Assembly: GCA_019639235.1 (NCBI GenBank)
Contig: JAHBSG010000004.1
Coordinates: 62,001 to 126,000 of the forward strand
Source of the DNA: Acidobacteriota bacterium
GTDB taxonomy: Bacteria; Acidobacteriota; Blastocatellia; Pyrinomonadales; Pyrinomonadaceae
Direction: 5' to 3'
Length of the DNA stretch: 64,000 nucleotides
The position numbers and the translations under genes are program-made. The notes under the pieces are model-generated. The model did not search any database. It was not told the DNA's origin and worked only from the letters and a program-made list of their open reading frames with translations. Shown in pieces: positions 16,731 through 64,000 of the stretch (position 1 is the stretch's first letter; each line of letters opens with the position of its first letter).

Positions 16731-17210
16731 ATGAAGATCTCAGCACAAGAAGAATACGGCCTGCGATGCCTTGTGCAGCTCGCAAATCTACCCGAGGGCG
16801 AGAGCCTTACCTTGCCGCAGATCGCGGAACGCGAGGGCATCTCGACGGCAAATGCCGGCAAGCTTATGTGGCTTTTGAACAAGGCCGGGTTCGTAAATTC
16901 GACCCGCGGGACGAAGGGCGGCTATTTTCTCGCCCGGCCGGCCGAGGACATTTACCTGAACGAGATCATAAAGGTGCTCGATGAGGACGTGCTGAGTTCG
17001 CATTGCGACAGCTACACGGGCGTTCTTGATAAGTGCGTTCACACGGGCGATTGCGGCATCCGGCCGGTCATCGTCGGGCTCCATGAGATCGTCGAGAACG
17101 CGCTCTCGCGGATAACGCTGGCCTCGCTCGTCGGCAATGAGAAATCGGTTGACGCGATGTTCCACCAGATACAGGGAATTCACCGGACGATCGAGCCGCA
17201 GAGAGTTTAA
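16731..17210 (+). CDS. Rrf2-family transcriptional regulator (IscR/SufR-like)
   Basis: 159 residues. Winged-helix N-terminus typical of Rrf2 (MKISAQEEYGLRCLVQLA, ISTANAGKLMWLLNKAGFV, RGTKGGYFLAR), then a dimerisation helix. Cys92, Cys102 and Cys108 are spaced like the Fe-S cluster ligands of IscR/NsrR. Such regulators bind an Fe-S cluster and control Fe-S assembly genes, commonly their own operon. The gene directly precedes sufB, and the promoter carries an inverted-repeat motif. It is the likely regulator of the SUF locus; autoregulation is inferred. Confidence 0.9.
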   Translation: MKISAQEEYGLRCLVQLANLPEGESLTLPQIAEREGISTANAGKLMWLLNKAGFVNSTRGTKGGYFLARPAEDIYLNEIIKVLDEDVLSSHCDSYTGVLDKCVHTGDCGIRPVIVGLHEIVENALSRITLASLVGNEKSVDAMFHQIQGIHRTIEPQRV

Positions 17211-17222
17211 GAAAGAGATCAG

Positions 17223-17320
17223 CCACAGAGGGCACAGAGATTTTTGACGACTTGATCGAATAAAACAGGACACGCTAGGACCTAGGTACAAAAACTCTGA
17301 GTCCTCGGTGACCTCGGTGG
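17223..17320. repeat. CACAGAG-type inverted repeat pair (MITE-like), no gene inside
   Basis: Left arm CCACAGAGGGCACAGAG plus ATTTTT (17223-17245) faces a degenerate right arm ending CCTCGGTGG (17290-17320), with about 44 bp between. The same repeat family recurs at 21902, 22385, 23517, 28726/29131 and, in another arrangement, 34611. Confidence 0.7.
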
Positions 17321-17336
17321 CGAATATAGAGTTAGT

Positions 17337-18776
<1,440 letters not shown>

Positions 18777-18784
18777 AGGTTTGC

Positions 18785-18945
18785 AACGCCGTTAGGCGTG
18801 GAATATTTATAGATGATTGATGAATCGAAGCGAGCGAGTTCCGTAGGAACGGCATATAGGTTCGATGATTGAGTATGTCGCTCCTCCGGAGCTCTGATAA
18901 TCCGAGTCGGCTTAAGTGCTATAAATATTCCGCTCCTTCGGAGCT
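18785..18945. repeat. REPIN-like cluster of four palindromes flanking tnpA
   Basis: Four short hairpins: ACGCC/GGCGT (18786-18799), GTTCC/GGAAC (18838-18850), GCTCC/GGAGC (18880-18892) and GCTCC/GGAGC (18932-18944). The outer two are in inverted orientation and carry matching tails, GGAATATTTATAG (18800-18812) and its complement (18919-18931). This is the layout of REP doublets moved by IS200/REP-type transposases; a related pair lies at 45563-45630. Confidence 0.8.
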
Positions 18946-18960
18946 AAGGAATAGGGAAGG

Positions 18961-19425
18961 ATGGCGAACACGTATTCTCAAATCTATATTCAGATAGTGT
19001 TCGCTGTTAGCGGTCGGGAGAATTTGATCGCGAAGGAATGGAAGGCCGAGCTCTACAAGTACATTACCGGAATCGTCACCAATCACGGCCAAAAATTGTT
19101 GGCGATAAATGGCGTCGCGGATCACGTTCACATTCTTTTGAATATTAAGCCAAATATCGCTCTATCTGACCTGGTTCGAGACATCAAGGCGAACTCCAGC
19201 AGATGGATAAATGAAAGGAAACTCGTACGCGGAAAATTTCAATGGCAAGAGGGCTTCGGGGCATTTTCGTATTCGATCTCACAGTTGGATGATGTTATCG
19301 ACTACATCCGGCGTCAGGAGTCGCATCATGAAGAGCGGACCTTCAAGCAGGAGTATTTGGCCTATCTCGACCGATTCAGGGTAGATTTCGATGATCGGTT
19401 TGTCTTTGATTGGATCGATGAGTGA
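18961..19425 (+). CDS. tnpA: IS200/IS605-family Y1 transposase TnpA
   Basis: 154 residues, the normal size of single-domain Y1 transposases. The HUH metal site is DHVHIL (His55, His57). The catalytic tyrosine is Tyr115 in DYIRRQ, with the supporting Gln119 four residues later, as in characterised IS200/IS605 TnpA proteins. These enzymes move single-stranded DNA by recognising subterminal hairpins; the palindromes just upstream fit that role. AGGGAAGG before the ATG is a good ribosome site. The reading frame is intact, so the enzyme may be active. Confidence 0.93.
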   Translation: MANTYSQIYIQIVFAVSGRENLIAKEWKAELYKYITGIVTNHGQKLLAINGVADHVHILLNIKPNIALSDLVRDIKANSSRWINERKLVRGKFQWQEGFGAFSYSISQLDDVIDYIRRQESHHEERTFKQEYLAYLDRFRVDFDDRFVFDWIDE

Positions 19426-19527
19426 TTGAAGTTGATGCGCTCAGGAATAAGGGTTCAACGAATTGAATTTGGTCTTTTGCGTGCACTCACGCTTACTTCA
19501 GATCTTTGAAAACTAAATCGCTGTTTC

Positions 19528-19557
19528 TTGACATCCTTCCTTACTTTTTGGTAAGGT
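19528..19557 (+). promoter_or_regulatory. Promoter of the Mn-riboswitch operon with internal palindrome
   Basis: TTGACA (19528-19533) with a weak -10 (TAAGGT, 19552-19557) at 18-nt spacing. Between and overlapping them is the perfect palindrome CCTTAC-N6-GTAAGG (19539-19556). The predicted transcript start is a few bases before the riboswitch. A repressor bound to the palindrome would block the promoter; its identity is unknown. Confidence 0.55.
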
Positions 19558-19565
19558 TTCGCTAG

Positions 19566-19661
19566 GTGAAAGGGGAGTAGATCGCCTTCGGGTTGACAGT
19601 GCCGTCACTACGAACACGCAAAAGTGTTCCGGCCTGTCAGTAAAGCTTCGAGACCTTTCGC
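19566..19661 (+). promoter_or_regulatory. yybP-ykoY manganese riboswitch
   Basis: All hallmarks of the yybP-ykoY aptamer are present in order: P1 strand GTGAAAGG (19566-19573) running into the conserved GGGGAGTAG (19572-19580); a stem TGACAG/CTGTCA; conserved GTCACTACG before a GAACAC/GTGTTC hairpin; CCGGC after it; and the 3' core GAGACCTTT (19650-19658), whose CCTTTCGC closes P1 (19654-19661). Members of this family bind Mn2+. The P1 3' strand also forms the 5' side of the terminator at 19651, so Mn2+ binding should prevent termination and switch expression on. Confidence 0.93.
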
Positions 19662-19701
19662 AGGATTGTCGTAAGAACAATTTCTGCGAGAGGTCTTTTT
19701 C
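19651..19701 (+). terminator. Riboswitch-controlled Rho-independent terminator
   Basis: AGACCTTTCGCAG (19651-19663) pairs with CTGCGAGAGGTCT (19684-19696), 13 pairs including one wobble, with an inner ATTGT/ACAAT stem, then TTTTTCTTTT. Its 5' strand overlaps the aptamer P1, making the two structures mutually exclusive. Confidence 0.9.
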
Positions 19702-19727
19702 TTTTGCCCTAACGAACGAGGGGAAGT

Positions 19728-20399
19728 ATGAAAAACCTGCTGTTAATGATCGCGGTTCTCGCGATTGCTGTTTGTCCGTCGCTCGCACAGGACGATGACG
19801 ATACAGATGTCCAATTCTGGAATGAGACCCAGGTCGTTGTGCCTTTCGGCAAGAAGCGGGAATGGTCGGCGGCGTTCTCGACCGTTGGCCGCTTCGGCGA
19901 CAACATGTCCCGGGCCAATGATGTCCGGGTAGGCTTCACGCTGACCCGAAAGATGAACAAGTACCTTTCGTTGGGCGGGGCTTACATTTACCGGTACACG
20001 AGCCCGGCGGCGGGTGTTGATCGGTACGAGACCCGTTATTTGGGCATCGCATCGGTGAACGTACCGCTGAACGAAAAGTGGACCTTCGTGAATCGGAATA
20101 TGTTCCAGTACGAGAATAGGCATTCTCGTTCTGACCGTAGGACGATACGCAGCCGGGTCGGCCTTGAACGCGAGGTTACGTTCGCAAAACGTAAATTCGA
20201 ACCATTTGGCACGATCGAGTTTACGCTTGACGCAAACGCCCGGGAGGTGACGCGGATCCGTTCTCAGTTGGGAGTTTCGCATAAGTTCAACAAAACGGTC
20301 TCGGCAAGTGTCTTTTATCTTCGCCAAGACGAGCTTCGTGGAGGAAGCCCGCAGGCAATAAACGCCCTCGGGACAAGCCTCCGGTTCACTGTCAGATAA
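19728..20399 (+). CDS. DUF2490-type outer-membrane beta-barrel protein
   Basis: 223 residues with a signal peptide (1-21, ending SLA-QD). The mature part is beta-rich with alternating aromatic strands (DVQFWNETQVVVPF, YLSLGGAYIYRYT, WTFVNRNMFQYENR) and ends in SLRFTVR, consistent with a small outer-membrane barrel of the DUF2490 family. No function is established for the family. It is the first gene downstream of the Mn riboswitch and terminator and is followed 25 nt later by an exported carbonic anhydrase, so both are predicted to be manganese-responsive. A role in metal or ion passage is speculative. Confidence 0.82.
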   Translation: MKNLLLMIAVLAIAVCPSLAQDDDDTDVQFWNETQVVVPFGKKREWSAAFSTVGRFGDNMSRANDVRVGFTLTRKMNKYLSLGGAYIYRYTSPAAGVDRYETRYLGIASVNVPLNEKWTFVNRNMFQYENRHSRSDRRTIRSRVGLEREVTFAKRKFEPFGTIEFTLDANAREVTRIRSQLGVSHKFNKTVSASVFYLRQDELRGGSPQAINALGTSLRFTVR

Positions 20400-20424
20400 A
20401 AAACGAGCATAAGGAAGGAAATCA

Positions 20425-21138
20425 ATGAAAACGATCAAACTACTAATTTTTACGTTGGTGTTCAGTATCTCGGTGGTTCCGGCAATTGCCCAGAAGTCCG
20501 CCGGCTATGGAGTCCAGACAAAGGCTTCGCAGGCCGCGATCACCCCGCAGCAGGCACTCCAGCTGCTCAAGGACGGAAACGGGAGATTCGTTGCCGGCAA
20601 GCCCAAGAATCAAAAGAACTATCGCAAACAGGTAACCTTTACGGCCCAGGGGCAGTTTCCCTATGCCGCGATCCTGAGCTGCCTTGATTCGCGTGTTGCC
20701 GTCGAAGAGATCTTCGACCTCAACAATGGCGATTCGTTCAACGGCCGCGTTGCCGGAAACGTGATGAACCCGGACATGCTCGGCAGCTTTGAGTTTGCGA
20801 CGAAGCTCGCCGGTGCAAAGGTCGTGATGGTCCTTGGGCACACGAAGTGCGGAGCGGTCAAGGGGGCCTGCGACCGTGCCGAAATGGGTAACCTGACCGG
20901 GCTGCTTGATCGCATCGAACCGGCGGTCGATCTTGTTTCCACAGACTGGAAAGACGGCCTCAAGAATTCCTCGAACGCGAAGTTCGTCGAGGCCGTTGGC
21001 CGCAAGAACGTCGAACTCGTGATGCAAAACATCAAGAAGGAAAGCCCGATCCTCAAGGAAATGATCGAAAAGGGGCAGATCATCCTTGTCGGCGGCATTT
21101 ATGACCTCGAGACCGGAAAGGTCGAGTTCATCGGCTAA
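20425..21138 (+). CDS. Exported beta-class carbonic anhydrase
   Basis: 237 residues. Signal peptide about 1-22 (ending AIAQ), so it acts in the periplasm. The beta-carbonic anhydrase metal site is complete: Cys86 with Asp88-Arg90 (CLDSR), His139 and Cys142 (GHTKCGA). It interconverts CO2 and bicarbonate. Second gene of the Mn-riboswitch operon, ending in a strong terminator at 21166. Beta-carbonic anhydrases normally hold zinc; control by manganese is unusual and raises the possibility of metal substitution or a link between carbonate chemistry and Mn2+ (for example Mn-carbonate) that is not yet shown. Confidence 0.93.
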   Translation: MKTIKLLIFTLVFSISVVPAIAQKSAGYGVQTKASQAAITPQQALQLLKDGNGRFVAGKPKNQKNYRKQVTFTAQGQFPYAAILSCLDSRVAVEEIFDLNNGDSFNGRVAGNVMNPDMLGSFEFATKLAGAKVVMVLGHTKCGAVKGACDRAEMGNLTGLLDRIEPAVDLVSTDWKDGLKNSSNAKFVEAVGRKNVELVMQNIKKESPILKEMIEKGQIILVGGIYDLETGKVEFIG

Positions 21139-21165
21139 GCCGGAAAACAACTGTAGAAACAGCTA

Positions 21166-21212
21166 ACACAGGCCTTGCTGAGCGGGAAAGCTCAAGCGGG
21201 CCTGTGTTTTCT
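21166..21212 (+). terminator. Terminator of the carbonic anhydrase operon
   Basis: ACACAGGCC (21166-21174) pairs with GGCCTGTGT (21199-21207), with an inner TGAGC/GCTCA stem, followed by TTT and C-T rich sequence. Confidence 0.85.
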
Positions 21213-21267
21213 TTGGCAGACGGCCCGATGTTGCCGGGATCGGCCGAAATAGGGTTAGGATAAGGCT

Positions 21268-21537
21268 ATGGAAAATGCTACGGCAGCGGTGCTTGATGGC
21301 CTTGGGTGGATCGGGGCTGCGTTTATCCTTACGGGATATTTGCTTGTCTCGTTCCGAAAGATCGCTCCGGATTCTTACACGTATCAGGGGCTGAACATCT
21401 CGGCAAGCGTTTTGCTCCTGATCAATACGATGTATTACGGGGCTTATCCGTCGAGCTTTGTAAACGCGGTCTGGGCCGTTATCGGCGTAGTGGCCGTCGC
21501 GGCGGTGGTGAGAAAAAATGCGAAGAATATCAGTTGA
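21268..21537 (+). CDS. Small membrane protein, CBU_0592-like
   Basis: 89 residues with three predicted membrane helices (about 10-28, 45-62, 66-82). GWIGAAFILTGYLLVSFRKI and the following YQGLNISASVLLLINTMYYG match the CBU_0592 family of small bacterial membrane proteins of unknown function. It overlaps the RidA gene by 20 nt, which implies translational coupling. Directly downstream of the carbonic anhydrase terminator, so it is expected to have its own promoter. Confidence 0.78.
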   Translation: MENATAAVLDGLGWIGAAFILTGYLLVSFRKIAPDSYTYQGLNISASVLLLINTMYYGAYPSSFVNAVWAVIGVVAVAAVVRKNAKNIS

Positions 21538-21901
21538 AGGAATTCCGGAGCCGAAAGGCCATTATTCGCCGGGAGTTGAGCACGGCGGTTTGATCTATGT
21601 CTCGGGGCAGTTGCCGCTTGACCTTGCGACCCGCGAGCCGTTCACGGGTGATATAGAAATGCAGACCGAACTCGCGTTAAGAAACGTCGAGGCGGTTCTG
21701 AAAGCGGGCGGCAGCGATCTCGGCCGCGTCGTGCAGATGACGATTTACGTTTCCGAGATGGAGCTTTGGGACGCCGTCAACCGGGCATACGCACGGGTAA
21801 TGGGCGACCATCGGCCGGCGAGGGCGATCGTCCCGGTCAAGGAGCTGCACTTCGGGACGCAGATCGAGATTCAGGCAATTGCGGCAAAGAAGGAAGATTA
21901 A
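21518..21901 (+). CDS. RidA-family protein (cytoplasmic)
   Basis: 127 residues with no signal peptide. YjgF/YER057c/UK114 fold: HYSPGVEHGGLIYVSGQLP, NVEAVLKAGGSDLGRVVQMTIYV and ARAIVPVKELHFGTQIEIQAIA; the arginine in the last block is the conserved substrate-binding residue of RidA deaminases. RidA hydrolyses reactive enamine/imine intermediates released by PLP enzymes. The gene overlaps the upstream small membrane protein and is followed by an exported RidA paralogue. Confidence 0.92.
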   Translation: MRRISVEGIPEPKGHYSPGVEHGGLIYVSGQLPLDLATREPFTGDIEMQTELALRNVEAVLKAGGSDLGRVVQMTIYVSEMELWDAVNRAYARVMGDHRPARAIVPVKELHFGTQIEIQAIAAKKED

Positions 21902-21931
21902 ACACAGAGGGCACAGAGAGCACGGAGATTT
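21902..21931. repeat. CACAGAG-type repeat, single arm
   Basis: ACACAGAGGGCACAGAGAGC followed by ACGGAGATT between the two RidA genes; same family as the arms at 17223, 22385 and 28726. Confidence 0.7.
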
Positions 21932-21934
21932 CTA

Positions 21935-22384
21935 ATGAAGATATTCAGTTTTACTGTCGTCCTGTTTTCGTTTCTTGTGGTCGGTGTTGATGCACAGAAG
22001 CGAGTGGTTGAGAGTGCTGATGCGCCGAAGGCGATCGGGCCTTATTCGCAGGCCATTGTCGCCAATGGCTTTGTCTTTGCCGCGGGGCAGATAGGCTCGG
22101 ACCCGAAGACCGGAACGCTGGTCGAGGGCGGCATCGAGGCCGAAACCGAACAAGCCTTGAAGAACATCGAGGCCGTGCTCAAGGCCGCGGGAAGCAGTAT
22201 GAAAGATGTGGTCAAGGCGACGGTCTTTCTCGCGGATATGAACGACTTTGCCAAGATGAACGCGATCTATGGCAAATGGATGGGCGAGCCCTATCCGGCC
22301 CGCTCGACCGTACAGGTCGCCCGTTTGCCGCGAGACGCACGGATAGAGATAGAGGTAGTGGCGATCATGAGCAAAAAGGACTAG
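21935..22384 (+). CDS. Exported RidA-family protein
   Basis: 149 residues. It starts with a signal peptide (MKIFSFTVVLFSFLVVGVDA-Q), so unlike its neighbour it is secreted. The RidA fold is complete: DAPKAIGPYSQAIVANGFVFAAGQIG, NIEAVLKAAGSSMKDVVKATVFLADM and PARSTVQVARLPRDARIEIEVVA, with the substrate arginine in the LPRDARIEIE block. Cytoplasmic RidA detoxifies imines; a periplasmic role would need a different source of such intermediates. It lies between two CACAGAG repeat copies. Confidence 0.9.
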   Translation: MKIFSFTVVLFSFLVVGVDAQKRVVESADAPKAIGPYSQAIVANGFVFAAGQIGSDPKTGTLVEGGIEAETEQALKNIEAVLKAAGSSMKDVVKATVFLADMNDFAKMNAIYGKWMGEPYPARSTVQVARLPRDARIEIEVVAIMSKKD

Positions 22385-22452
22385 CCACAGAGATCACGGA
22401 GAACACGTAGACGGTTGTGACAGTTGTTCAATACTCTCGGTGTTCTCTGTGG
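22385..22452. repeat. CACAGAG-type inverted repeat pair
   Basis: Left arm CCACAGAGATCACGGAG (from 22385) and right arm CTCGGTGTTCTCTGTGG (to 22452) enclose about 27 bp, between the exported RidA gene and the next small membrane protein. Confidence 0.75.
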
Positions 22453-22458
22453 CGGGAA

Positions 22459-22725
22459 ATGGAAATGCAATATTACGGCATAGATTGGCTGGCGACGGCC
22501 GCGGGGCTTTCCGGGGTTTATCTTCTGGGCAACCGCAACCGCATCGGCTTTTTGGTGATGATGGTCGCAAGCCTGAGCTGGATGACGGTCGGGTTCTTGA
22601 TAAACAGCGTTGCGTTGATCCTCGGCAGCATCGTCTTCTTCAGCCTGCACGTCCGCGGCTTTCTTGCCTGGCGGCGTGAGGAGCGGAACGCGATGGAAGC
22701 GGTGCACATAACGGTGGCGAAATGA
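22459..22725 (+). CDS. Small membrane protein, possibly PnuC-like
   Basis: The ATG at 22459 gives 88 residues; an in-frame start at 22417 would translate the repeat and is rejected. Three hydrophobic helices are separated by a short NRNRIGF loop, with a basic C-terminal tail (WRREERN). The arrangement slightly resembles a PnuC fragment, but it is too short for a complete transporter. Its stop overlaps the PhzF start by 4 nt, so the two are translationally coupled. Function unknown. Confidence 0.6.
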   Translation: MEMQYYGIDWLATAAGLSGVYLLGNRNRIGFLVMMVASLSWMTVGFLINSVALILGSIVFFSLHVRGFLAWRREERNAMEAVHITVAK

Positions 22726-23552
22726 GTTTGAAGATATTTCAGGTTGACGCATTTACGTCCGAGCCTTTCGGCGGTAATCCGGCGGCGGTCGTGCCGCTCG
22801 AAAGCTGGCTCGCGGATGACGTAATGCTCAAGATCGCGGCGGAGAACAATCTTTCGGAAACGGCGTTCTTCGTCAAAGAGGGCGACCGGTATCACATTCG
22901 CTGGTTCACGCCGGCGGTCGAGGTAAATTTGTGTGGGCACGCAACGCTCGCGACGTCTCACGTGATCTTTAACGAGCTCGGGCTTGAGACGGAAGAAATA
23001 AAGTTCCACTCAAACCGCAGCGGCGAGCTCGGTGTAAAGAAGAGCGGCGAAAGGCTCGTCCTCGATTTTCCGGCGTACCCGATGACGGAGATCGAAACGC
23101 CCGCGGGGCTTGCCGAGGCCGTCGGTGCCCGGCCGCGGCGGACGTGGGAATCGCAGGGAAACATGGTCTTTATGCTGGTCGACAGCGTTGACCAGATCCG
23201 GGCACTAAAGCCTGATATGTCCGAGCTGATGAAGCAGAGGTACGACGAAGTGATCGTGACTGCCCGCGGCGATGATTGCGATTTCGCGTCGCGGATGTTC
23301 GCACCGCGGATCGGCATTCCGGAAGACCCGGTAACGGGAGCGATCCATTGCTCGCTGATCCCTTACTGGGCCGGCGAGCTCGGGAAAACGGAGCTCTTCG
23401 CTCGGCAGGTCTCGCCCCGCGGCGGCGAGCTTTTCTGCGAACTCGCCGGCGACCGCGTAAAGATAGGCGGCAATGCGGTAACGTTCATGAAAGGCGAGAT
23501 CTATCTGGAAGTTTCGCCACAGAGCTCACAGAGAGCGCAGAGCGGTTCCTAA
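22722..23552 (+). CDS. PhzF-family isomerase-like protein
   Basis: 276 residues. The two-domain PhzF (diaminopimelate epimerase-like) fold is clear: FQVDAFTSEPFGGNPAAVV at the start, NLSETAFF containing the catalytic glutamate, FTPAVEVNLCGHATLA, and EDPVTGAIHCSL in the second half. Homologues isomerise small metabolites, but most are uncharacterised. The last 13 or so residues (from about residue 265) are encoded by a CACAGAG-type repeat that runs into the reading frame. Its TAA shares a base with the ATG of the next gene. Confidence 0.92.
   Translation: MSLKIFQVDAFTSEPFGGNPAAVVPLESWLADDVMLKIAAENNLSETAFFVKEGDRYHIRWFTPAVEVNLCGHATLATSHVIFNELGLETEEIKFHSNRSGELGVKKSGERLVLDFPAYPMTEIETPAGLAEAVGARPRRTWESQGNMVFMLVDSVDQIRALKPDMSELMKQRYDEVIVTARGDDCDFASRMFAPRIGIPEDPVTGAIHCSLIPYWAGELGKTELFARQVSPRGGELFCELAGDRVKIGGNAVTFMKGEIYLEVSPQSSQRAQSGS
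23517..23542. repeat. CACAGAG-type repeat inside the PhzF 3' end
   Basis: CCACAGAGCTCACAGAGAGC followed by GCAGAG. It encodes the low-complexity PhzF tail. Confidence 0.7.
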
Positions 23553-24328
23553 TGATCGACGAAATAAAGAGTGAGTTAGCTCGGCTCGAGACGGAGCACG
23601 ACATCAAGATTCTGCTCGCGGTTGAAAGCGGTAGCCGGGCTTGGGGATTCGCTTCGCAGGATAGCGATTGGGATGTTCGCTACATTTACATTCACAAGCT
23701 CGATTGGTATTTGAGAATTGATCAATACAAGGATTCGCAAGAGGAGATCCTGCCGAACGATATCGACCTGTCGGGCTGGGAATTGCGGAAGGCCTTCAGG
23801 CTGTTTCGAAAATCGAATCCGCCGATGCTCGAATGGCTGCGGAGCCCGATCATTTATCGCGAGCAGTTCTCAACAGCAGAGAAACTAAGGGAACTAAGTG
23901 AGAAGTATTACAATCCCCGGTCGTGCATGTACCACTACCTAAGCATGGCGAAGGGCAATTTCAATGAGTTTTTGACGGATCGCGAGTTAGTAAAGATTAA
24001 GAAATATTTTTATGTTCTTCGGCCGGTTCTCGCCTGTGAATGGATATTGAACGAAAAGAGTTTTCCGCCGATGGAGTTTGATCGATTGGTCGATTCACAA
24101 GTAAAGGATCCGCAGGTACGCACGGCAATCGACAATTTGCTTGAACGCAAAATGGCCGGTGAAGAGCTACGCGAAGAACCGAAGATCGATGTTTTGAATG
24201 AATTACTCGCGGCGAAGATAAAGTACTTTTCAGAACTCGTTGGTGAGATAGACACGGTAGATAAACCGCAAACGGAAACCCTCGATGATTTATTTCGAGA
24301 GACTTTGCGAGAAGTGTGGAATCAATAA
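23552..24328 (+). CDS. Predicted nucleotidyltransferase (COG3541/YcgL type)
   Basis: The ATG at 23552 overlaps the PhzF stop and gives 258 residues; a longer in-frame extension upstream lies wholly inside phzF and is rejected. The N-terminus has the polymerase-beta-like nucleotidyltransferase motif [16 protein letters not shown], i.e. GS...DxD, near residue 24, followed by helical segments and WLRSPIIY. The COG3541 family of predicted nucleotidyltransferases has no established substrate. It ends 2 nt before sufC, so it lies in the same transcription unit as the SUF genes. Confidence 0.85.
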
Positions 24329-24330
24329 AT

Positions 24331-25083
24331 ATGTTGCTAGAAGTTAAAGACCTTCACGCAGGGATCGAAGGCAAAGAGATCTTGAAGGGCCTGAATCTTC
24401 AGGTCCGCAAGGGCGAGGTCCACGCCATCATGGGGCCGAACGGTTCGGGTAAATCGACGTTGTCGAAGGTGCTTGCGGGCCACCCGAACTATGAGGTGAT
24501 GTCCGGCGAAGTGCTCTACGACGGCAAAAACCTGCTCGACATGGAACCCGACGAACGTGCTCGCGACGGCGTCTTCATGGCGTTCCAGTATCCGGTCGAG
24601 GTTCCGGGAGTTTCAAATTCGCAGTTCCTCCGGCTCGCCTATAACGAAAAGATGAAGCACCTCGGCGAGGAAGAGCTCGACCCGCTCGAGTTCAACGATT
24701 ACCTGAAAGAGAAGGCGAAGATCGTCGAGATGGACCCGCAGTTCTTCAAGCGGTCGGTCAACGAAGGCTTTTCGGGCGGCGAGAAAAAGCGTAACGAGAT
24801 CCTGCAGATGGCAGTGCTCGAACCGAAGCTCGCAATCCTGGACGAGACCGATTCGGGGCTCGATATCGACGCTCTTCGCATCGTCGCCGAGGGCGTTAAC
24901 AAGCTCCGCAGCGAGAAGAACGCGATCATCCTCGTAACGCATTACCAGCGGTTGCTGAACTACATCCAGCCCGATTTTGTCCACGTCCTCGCCGGCGGAA
25001 AGATCGTCAAGGAAGGCGGAAAGGAACTTGCCCTGGAACTTGAGGAAAAAGGCTACGATTGGGTCAAAGGAGCGGCGAACTGA
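24331..25083 (+). CDS. sufC: Fe-S cluster assembly ATPase SufC
   Basis: 250 residues from the ATG at 24331; an in-frame GTG at 24316 overlaps the previous gene. ABC ATPase with Walker [10 protein letters not shown] near residue 36, signature [10 protein letters not shown] (the altered C-loop typical of SufC), and Walker [13 protein letters not shown]. SufC provides ATP-driven conformational change to the SufB-SufD scaffold. Followed immediately by a DUF3703 gene rather than by sufD. Confidence 0.97.
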
Positions 25084-63240: not shown

Positions 63241-63334
63241 TTCTATCCCTCGTCAAACTGAATCTACAAAGAGCCGAGACGTCTAGACATGGTCTTGCTT
63301 CGCTCAAAGCGTTAGAATGAAGACTCATGCAAAA

Positions 63335-63420
63335 GTTTTCAGGGGAGCCGTTTTCGGCTGAGAGTTATGCATCGGTCTGCATATTACCCTAAAAACCTGA
63401 TGCGGATAATACCGACGAAG
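63335..63420 (+). promoter_or_regulatory. TPP riboswitch (THI box)
   Basis: Conserved THI-box elements in order: GGGGAGCC (63342-63349), GGCTGAGAG (63356-63364), ACCC, and CTGATGCGGATAATACCG (63397-63414) followed by CGAAGGGA. The AGGGAG ribosome site of thiC directly follows the aptamer 3' end, so thiamine pyrophosphate probably blocks translation start. No terminator was seen between aptamer and ATG. Confidence 0.95.
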
Positions 63421-63431
63421 GGAGAAAAACG

Positions 63432-64000
63432 ATGAGAGAGAATACAGAAGTCAGAAGTCAGAAGTCAGAAGTAGATTCGAATGGCCAGGTGCATTTGCCG
63501 GCATCGCGAAAAGTTTATGTTGAGACGGGCGATCTTCGCGTTCCGTTTCGGGAGATATCGCTCTCGCCATCGCGTGAGATGGACGGGACGATGGTTGAGA
63601 ACGCGCCCGTTCGTGTTTACGACACCAGCGGCCCGTGGACCGATCCCGCACAAAAGCACGACATCCGCGAAGGGCTCTCGGCACTTCGCCGGGAATGGAT
63701 AATCGGTCGCGGCGACGTAGAGGAATACGAAGGCCGCGAGGTGCAACCGCAAGATAACGGCTACCTAACAAAAGGTGCGGAGGAAATTGCCCGCGTTAAA
63801 GAAAACGGCGCGCTCGAAGAATTCCCCGGACTCCGAAGAGCTCCGCTTCGGGCAAAAACTGGTGCCTGCGTTACGCAGATGCACTACGCACGCAAGGGAA
63901 TCATCACACCGGAGATGGAATACGTGGCGATCCGTGAGAACCTCGGCCGCCAAGTCGCCCGCGAACACCTTGAGCTTTCCGAACGAAGCGACAGAAGTTC
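63432..64000 (+). CDS. thiC: Phosphomethylpyrimidine synthase ThiC, 5' part
   Basis: The first 189 residues of ThiC are visible; the gene runs off the window. Typical N-terminal blocks are [36 protein letters not shown] and [11 protein letters not shown]. ThiC is a radical SAM enzyme that makes HMP-P, the pyrimidine of thiamine, from aminoimidazole ribotide; its C-terminal Fe-S motif lies outside the window. The start and control by the TPP riboswitch are clear. Residues about 5-14 are encoded by a heptamer repeat and are probably not conserved. Confidence 0.95.
63445..63472. repeat. Heptamer repeat inside the thiC start
   Basis: Four exact tandem CAGAAGT units, in the reading frame just after the thiC ATG. 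Confidence 0.85.

Follow-up and report, generated by a model that had tools for sequence, protein, structure and literature searches.

Introduction

The described targets of manganese riboswitches are mostly metal transporters. The closest known relatives of the RNA considered here are the yybP-ykoY switches of alx and mntP in Escherichia coli and of yoaB in Lactococcus lactis. In the solved aptamers Mn2+ is bound by five phosphates and by N7 of an invariant adenosine in loop L3, found in UCA41 of L. lactis and ACA48 of X. oryzae, and L3 is docked on L1 with A10 (PMC6754395). The mgtA switch of Streptococcus pneumoniae, which forms a three-way junction and exerts ON control, governs a streptococcal P-type ATPase (PMC9495176). 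Manganese stress alkalizes the cytoplasm of E. coli, and alkaline pH tightens the binding of Mn to mntP RNA 17-22-fold (PMC9603457); thus this class of RNA reads pH and manganese together. Among carbonic anhydrases (CAs), the iota class of the COG4337 type is represented by the Anabaena and Bigelowiella enzymes (PDB 7c5v-7c5y), and in cyanobacteria SbtA and CA serve carbon uptake.

The locus described here lies in a stretch of 64,000 nucleotides (the window) from an Acidobacteriota bacterium of the family Pyrinomonadaceae. The window RNA shares with alx, mntP and yoaB the L1 and L3 motifs, the invariant L3 adenosine and helices P1, P2 and P3. It differs from them in lacking P4, in placing a P1 strand in a transcription terminator, in being missed by the Rfam model RF00080, and in standing before genes for a DUF2490 protein and a CA rather than an exporter. 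The three-way junction and ON control are held in common with the mgtA switch, which differs in its ATPase target. No paper joining yybP-ykoY with carbonic anhydrase was found in a literature search that most subscription papers lay beyond, and those that bring together riboswitch, carbonic anhydrase and manganese look unrelated by title and abstract. The RNA is of a known riboswitch class; the regulon, as far as can be told, is new.

Assignment of the RNA to the yybP-ykoY class

An earlier note on this DNA, made from the sequence alone, had placed the RNA in the yybP-ykoY class and proposed a search with RF00080 as the check. RF00080 gave no match at the site, even at E<=10. As a control, the same model (Rfam 15) was run on E. 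coli K-12, where it missed the proven alx switch and scored mntP below the gathering threshold. The negative result therefore says nothing about the clade of the window; RF00080 under-reports the class. When RF00080 and all Rfam families were run on some 30 related loci, a single sub-threshold match to RF00080 was obtained (locus L020, 23.5 bits). Two weak Rfam traces fall at the window site, one of them SSRC10, a streptococcal RNA, with 16.6 bits; our guess is that SSRC10 is the S. pneumoniae mgtA leader. The only Rfam match in the window above the gathering score is a TPP riboswitch (RF00059) at 63331-63440 on the forward strand, with 69.8 bits.

A covariance model, R1, was built from 13 leaders that DNA similarity had identified among genomes of the same family. 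On the window, whose own sequence is one of the 13, R1 placed the aptamer first (E 8e-23), and the next-best place reached 13.4 bits. The seed holds no proteobacterial sequence. On 8 kb of E. coli DNA, searched with filters off, alx nevertheless came first with 37.7 bits (E 8e-9) and mntP second with 24.4 bits (E 3e-5), all else scoring 8.5 bits or less; the E-values of these searches are rough, and the rank order is clear. By all the sequence evidence the window RNA belongs to the manganese-sensing yybP-ykoY class, and with alx and mntP as the two best E. coli matches the class given in the earlier note is borne out.

Table 1. Features of the switch and its transcription unit, in window positions.
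Feature	Position	Strand	Evidence or remark
TTGACA, -35-like element of the unit's probable promoter	19528..19533	+	spacing kept in leaders
yybP-ykoY-type aptamer	19564..19661	+	R1 92.7 bits; covariation; fold -35.5 kcal/mol
Aptamer P1	19568-19573 with 19654-19659	+	
L1, sarcin-ricin-like loop	19574..19579	+	GGGGAGTAG invariant in the seed alignment
Aptamer P2	19584-19593	+	
Aptamer P3a	19594-19603/19631-19639	+	
L3, metal-binding loop CCGTCACTACG	19602..19612	+	GTCA kept in TerC-type and CA-type leaders
Aptamer P3b	19612-19617/19624-19629	+	
Intrinsic terminator, ON expression platform	19650..19703	+	5' arm includes the P1 3' strand
DUF2490 protein (TC 1.B.81, putative porin)	19728..20399	+	PF10677, E 7e-20
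Exported beta-CA	20425..21138	+	PF00484, E 4e-36
Terminator closing the DUF2490-CA unit	21166..21213	+	stem 21166-21207, then TTTCTTT

Structure of the aptamer and its ligand

In the fold of the RNA, P1 encloses two further helices, P2 and a long P3 interrupted by an internal loop (Table 1). The core motifs named in the earlier note are in place: GGGGAGTAG at 19572-19580, GTCACTACG at 19604-19612, CCGGC from 19629 and GAGACCTTT from 19650. In the RNA, L1 carries GGGGAGUAG and L3 carries GUCA with the invariant Mn-ligand adenosine. By position, A19607 would be the N7 ligand of Mn2+, equivalent to A41 of L. lactis and A48 of X. oryzae, and A19576 would, from the alignment of motifs, correspond to A10 of the solved aptamers. 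The L3 base after GUCA varies in the clade of the window (A, U, C or G), as it does among the solved aptamers.

The alignment of 69 leaders used for covariation was fitted to the structure, which flatters its count of 22 of 25 pairs with two-sided changes; 89.9% of cells are paired, and shuffles gave 72% and 15. Pairing was destroyed when the partner was slid by one column. Helices P1.1, P3a and P3b are well supported, and P2 is poorly aligned (64.5%). P4 is absent from the window and from all leaders that precede CA genes (CA-type), which leaves a three-way junction; part of the leaders that precede TerC (TerC-type) have a P4-like hairpin. The loss of P4 was considered as a novelty and dropped, since three-way-junction members of the class are already known (PMC9495176). 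No systematic difference between CA-type and TerC-type leaders was seen in L1 and L3.

A three-way junction raises the question of the ligand. The mgtA RNA of S. pneumoniae is reported to bind Ca2+ more tightly than Mn2+ (PMC9495176), and yybP variants may sense other divalent ions (PMC7266159). The aptamer might thus sense Ca2+ or another divalent, the CA serving calcium carbonate or calcium handling. We consider this unlikely: L1 and L3 are the same as in the TerC-type leaders of the family, and nearly so within the same genome; many of those leaders also lack P4; and CGUCAUUACG, the L3 of five CA-type leaders, is identical to the L3 of E. coli alx. The aptamer core is common to CA-type and TerC-type leaders, and the regulon as a whole is of the manganese type; on these grounds the ligand is very probably Mn2+.

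Promoter and expression platform

In each of the nine CA-type leaders, as in many of the TerC type, an exact TTGACA lies 41-45 nucleotides 5' of GGGGAG. The -10 region of the window leader is weak (TAAGGT/GTAAGG, 19551-19557), and a generic sigma-70 scan found no consensus promoter. Given the near-constant spacing of TTGACA in the CA-type leaders, the switch-DUF2490-CA unit most likely has its own promoter. The objection, raised in the earlier note, that the genes might be transcribed from another promoter is without support in the sequence, because the unit has both its own TTGACA element and a distal terminator.

The terminator arms, 19650-19665 and 19682-19697, form 16 contiguous pairs followed by TTTCTTTT, and the stem has a folding energy of -27.9 kcal/mol (z -6.7). 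With the 3' strand of P1 inside a terminator arm, a ligand-gated expression platform is present by anatomy. This overlap is found in 62 of 69 leaders, compared with 5.6 in shuffles. The same conflict had been read previously as P1 competing with a 13-bp terminator in a Mn-ON design; the competition for the strand and the ON layout stand, and the stem is corrected to 16 pairs.

The window thus probably holds a P4-less riboswitch of the yybP-ykoY (Mn2+) class that acts as an ON switch of transcription and controls a short DUF2490-CA operon. In the absence of ligand, the strand GAGACCTTTCGCAG would pair downstream and RNA polymerase would stop before DUF2490. Mn2+ would dock L1 on L3 through A19607, P1 would then be held and the terminator could not form, so that the outer-membrane barrel and the exported CA would be made.

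Genes of the window unit

The two target genes named earlier, a DUF2490 protein and an exported beta-CA, are confirmed by their Pfam matches (Table 1), and both products have signal-peptide-like N termini. Each start codon is preceded by a purine run resembling a ribosome-binding site, and only 25 nucleotides separate the genes. The terminator that closes the unit has a folding energy of about -31 kcal/mol (z -4.1). The beta-CA has a hydrophobic N terminus of the Sec type ending at AIA-Q. PF00484 identifies its Pro_CA domain, and its metal-site motifs, CxDxR (CLDSR) and HxxC (HTKC), which hold the usual Zn ligands, align with those of PDB 2a5v.

DUF2490 is entered as family TC 1.B.81, a putative porin family (PMC4827864). 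The AlphaFold2 model of the window protein, made with alignment rows from the window and genome loci only, has a signal helix and a barrel of 12 long strands (pLDDT 83). Foldseek gave weak matches of this model to outer-membrane barrels generally, including NanC, with TM about 0.5; for the modeled protein these matches support a barrel and no particular substrate.

Distribution of the switch

Among the 119 genomes of the family, R1 found 62 sites, spread over 50 genomes and mostly before TerC. Of 396 genomes from across the phylum, 26 had matches, and further ones came from other families of the class; one match of 25 bits, at locus L089, is probably spurious. TerC lies within about 2 kb in 50 of the 69 leaders and a CA gene in nine. 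Most of the others stand before a universal stress protein with a P-type cation ATPase, a CNNM transporter or HtpX, or at a contig edge. TerC, P-type ATPases and CNNM proteins are the gene types expected of a manganese switch. The contig of the window itself carries a second switch, at contig positions 39739-39835, 22 kb upstream of the window and before TerC; this copy has the same GGGGAGTAG, and its L3 differs at one variable base.

In other families of the class, genes for HtpX-like M48 proteases also stand behind the switch (L104, checked with Pfam, and L200, L202 and L204). In genome G510 two switches lie about 1 kb from each other, one preceding an HtpX-like gene and the other TerC.

Two classes of carbonic anhydrase under one switch

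The association of riboswitch and CA recurs in eight other genomes when relatives of the window are searched, in three of them with DUF2490 between. The nine CA-type leaders precede an iota-CA in seven genomes and a beta-CA in two, the window and G039. In four genomes the switch is followed by iota-CA and in three by DUF2490 and then iota-CA; behind the switch of the window come DUF2490 and then beta-CA, and behind that of G039 comes beta-CA. The iota-CAs of the relatives match PDB 7c5v (E 3e-41) and 7c5x (E 5e-74) and contain the HHSS motif, which places them in the same class as the COG4337-type enzymes. They differ from these in having a signal-peptide-like N terminus, in riboswitch control and, in three genomes, in their position behind DUF2490. 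They matched no Pfam family, and RefSeq often labels the class phosphoribosyl-AMP cyclohydrolase.

Chance could have moved a TerC-type switch in front of unrelated genes, with no meaning for the CA, and the CA locus of the window does lie in a rearranged suf cluster adjoining a transposase. The nine loci, all from one bacterial family, represent five genera and no fewer than three gene contexts, always on the same strand and with the genes close together, and each of the seven iota-CA genes found among the 119 family genomes lies under the switch. Against this distribution, hitch-hiking is very improbable. On the aptamer tree the CA-type leaders need three changes, but with an aptamer too short to decide they may also have a single origin. 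In a protein search for further relatives, two contigs began near the start of the CA gene, leaving the leader region outside the contig.

A general link of iota-CA to the switch was rejected outside the family, where iota-CA genes in eight other genomes of the phylum and at five plasmid loci were without it. On a plasmid of Asticcacaulis sp. DW145 (L184, 2381-3744), DUF2490 comes after an iota-CA, accompanied by a divergent pair of histidine kinase and response regulator and without the switch. The iota-CA-DUF2490 pair is therefore not tied to this RNA.

The simplest reading, we infer, is that a beta-CA replaced the iota-CA behind DUF2490 in the lineage of the window. An exported beta-CA without the switch exists in G071, which has a 75%-identical beta-CA elsewhere and an iota-CA under the switch. 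Because two unrelated folds with different metal needs fill one regulated slot, extracytoplasmic CA activity, rather than a cofactor, is probably what is controlled and kept by selection. The earlier note had suggested a link of manganese either to carbonate chemistry or to the metal choice of the CA; the exchange of beta-CA and iota-CA favors the former.

Two explanations based on metal choice are to be weighed against this exchange. In one, excess Mn mis-metallates Zn CAs and the switch supplies a spare, ideally of the metal-free iota class. The iota-CAs of the relatives are closest to the Anabaena/Bigelowiella COG4337 type, which is active without metal. A plasmid of Sphingomonas parapaucimobilis (L188, 510-2983) has an iota-CA beside a Fur-type repressor, two GTP-binding proteins and MerC, which looks like a zinc-starvation set that uses a metal-free CA. 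In the window and G039, however, the enzyme is a beta-CA that has the Zn ligands usual for it, as aligned for the window enzyme, and a metal-proof substitute appears rather unlikely. In the other explanation, the exported CA takes Mn2+ as its metal, which TerC brings across the membrane, and is made only when Mn is plentiful. TerC proteins do metallate exported Mn enzymes (PMC10550928), and the diatom iota-CA LCIP63 prefers Mn2+ (PMC8425729). Yet iota-CA of the COG4337 type works without a metal, BteCA-iota resembled a Zn enzyme, the beta-CA is a Zn enzyme, and two unrelated CA classes are exchanged; a cofactor logic of this kind is quite unlikely.

The suf cluster and SbtA

The unit of the window lies within a stretched suf cluster, 16731-25083 on the forward strand, which runs from an Rrf2 regulator and SufB through a transposase and the switch unit onward to SufC. 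The transposase-like protein between SufB and the switch, at 18961-19425 (forward strand), is IS200-like (Y1_Tnp). Two Rid proteins, an NMN-transporter-like protein and a PhzF-like protein are encoded between the switch unit and SufC, and this insertion zone is used differently in relatives. The CA unit is inside a stretched suf cluster in the genus of the window and in G039. Since the units of G023, G027 and G057 lie outside suf, this setting is not required.

SbtA (PF05982; PDB 7cye) directly follows the CA in G027 and G039, side by side as in the cyanobacterial carbon-uptake pairing, and stands after a Rid gene in G008 and G061. The order in G100 is switch - TerB-like - TerC - DUF2490 - SbtA. 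Unlike the cyanobacterial systems, the regulator here is an RNA, and SbtA was not found in the genome of the window. In the genus of the window SbtA adjoins SufB-Rid even where there is no switch, so its neighborhood is only partly informative. A general link of SbtA to the switch was weakened: of 16 full-length SbtA genes of the family, 5 stand behind a switch, and no switch lies near the other loci. At L172 (G107), L178 (G090) and L182 (G075) the neighbor of SbtA is a gene for an AccD-like carboxyltransferase, confirmed by Pfam at L172 only, which suggests bicarbonate for carboxylation.

These neighbors bear on the possibility of mineral detoxification, in which TerC exports Mn2+ and carbonate from the periplasmic CA immobilizes it as MnCO3. 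One switch class does govern TerC and an exported CA within one genome. SbtA, where it is part of the unit, would take HCO3- in, not out, and there is no pointer to mineral formation in the sequence. Such a role for the CA is improbable.

A possible role in inorganic-carbon and pH handling

CO2 is scarce at high pH. An exported CA together with a bicarbonate carrier would be a sensible reply to high pH, and this is the explanation we favor. Tentatively, the unit may serve to handle inorganic carbon and pH at times of high cytoplasmic Mn2+ and high pH. In the periplasm, escaping CO2 would be converted to HCO3- and H+ by the exported CA; DUF2490 would act as an anion pore, and SbtA, where present, would return HCO3-.

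More speculatively, and with some doubt on our part, the Mn2+- and pH-tuned RNA could be a sensor of alkalinity or of the need for inorganic carbon, governing in the same cells both Mn export by TerC and a bicarbonate module. That module would consist of an exported CA of either class, the DUF2490 porin and, in some genomes, SbtA.

Significance

The nine examples come from one family, which limits their reach. In these nine genomes the switch stands before an enzyme of CO2 chemistry, and the exchange of two CA classes isolates CA activity as the regulated function. A clade of Mn-class switches missed by the current Rfam model has come to light, and DUF2490, a putative porin family of unknown function, gains a context. 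The findings make testable an old question, why the same RNA (alx) reads both manganese and pH. If the RNA is indeed a sensor of alkalinity, this would be the first link of a metal riboswitch to CO2 chemistry.
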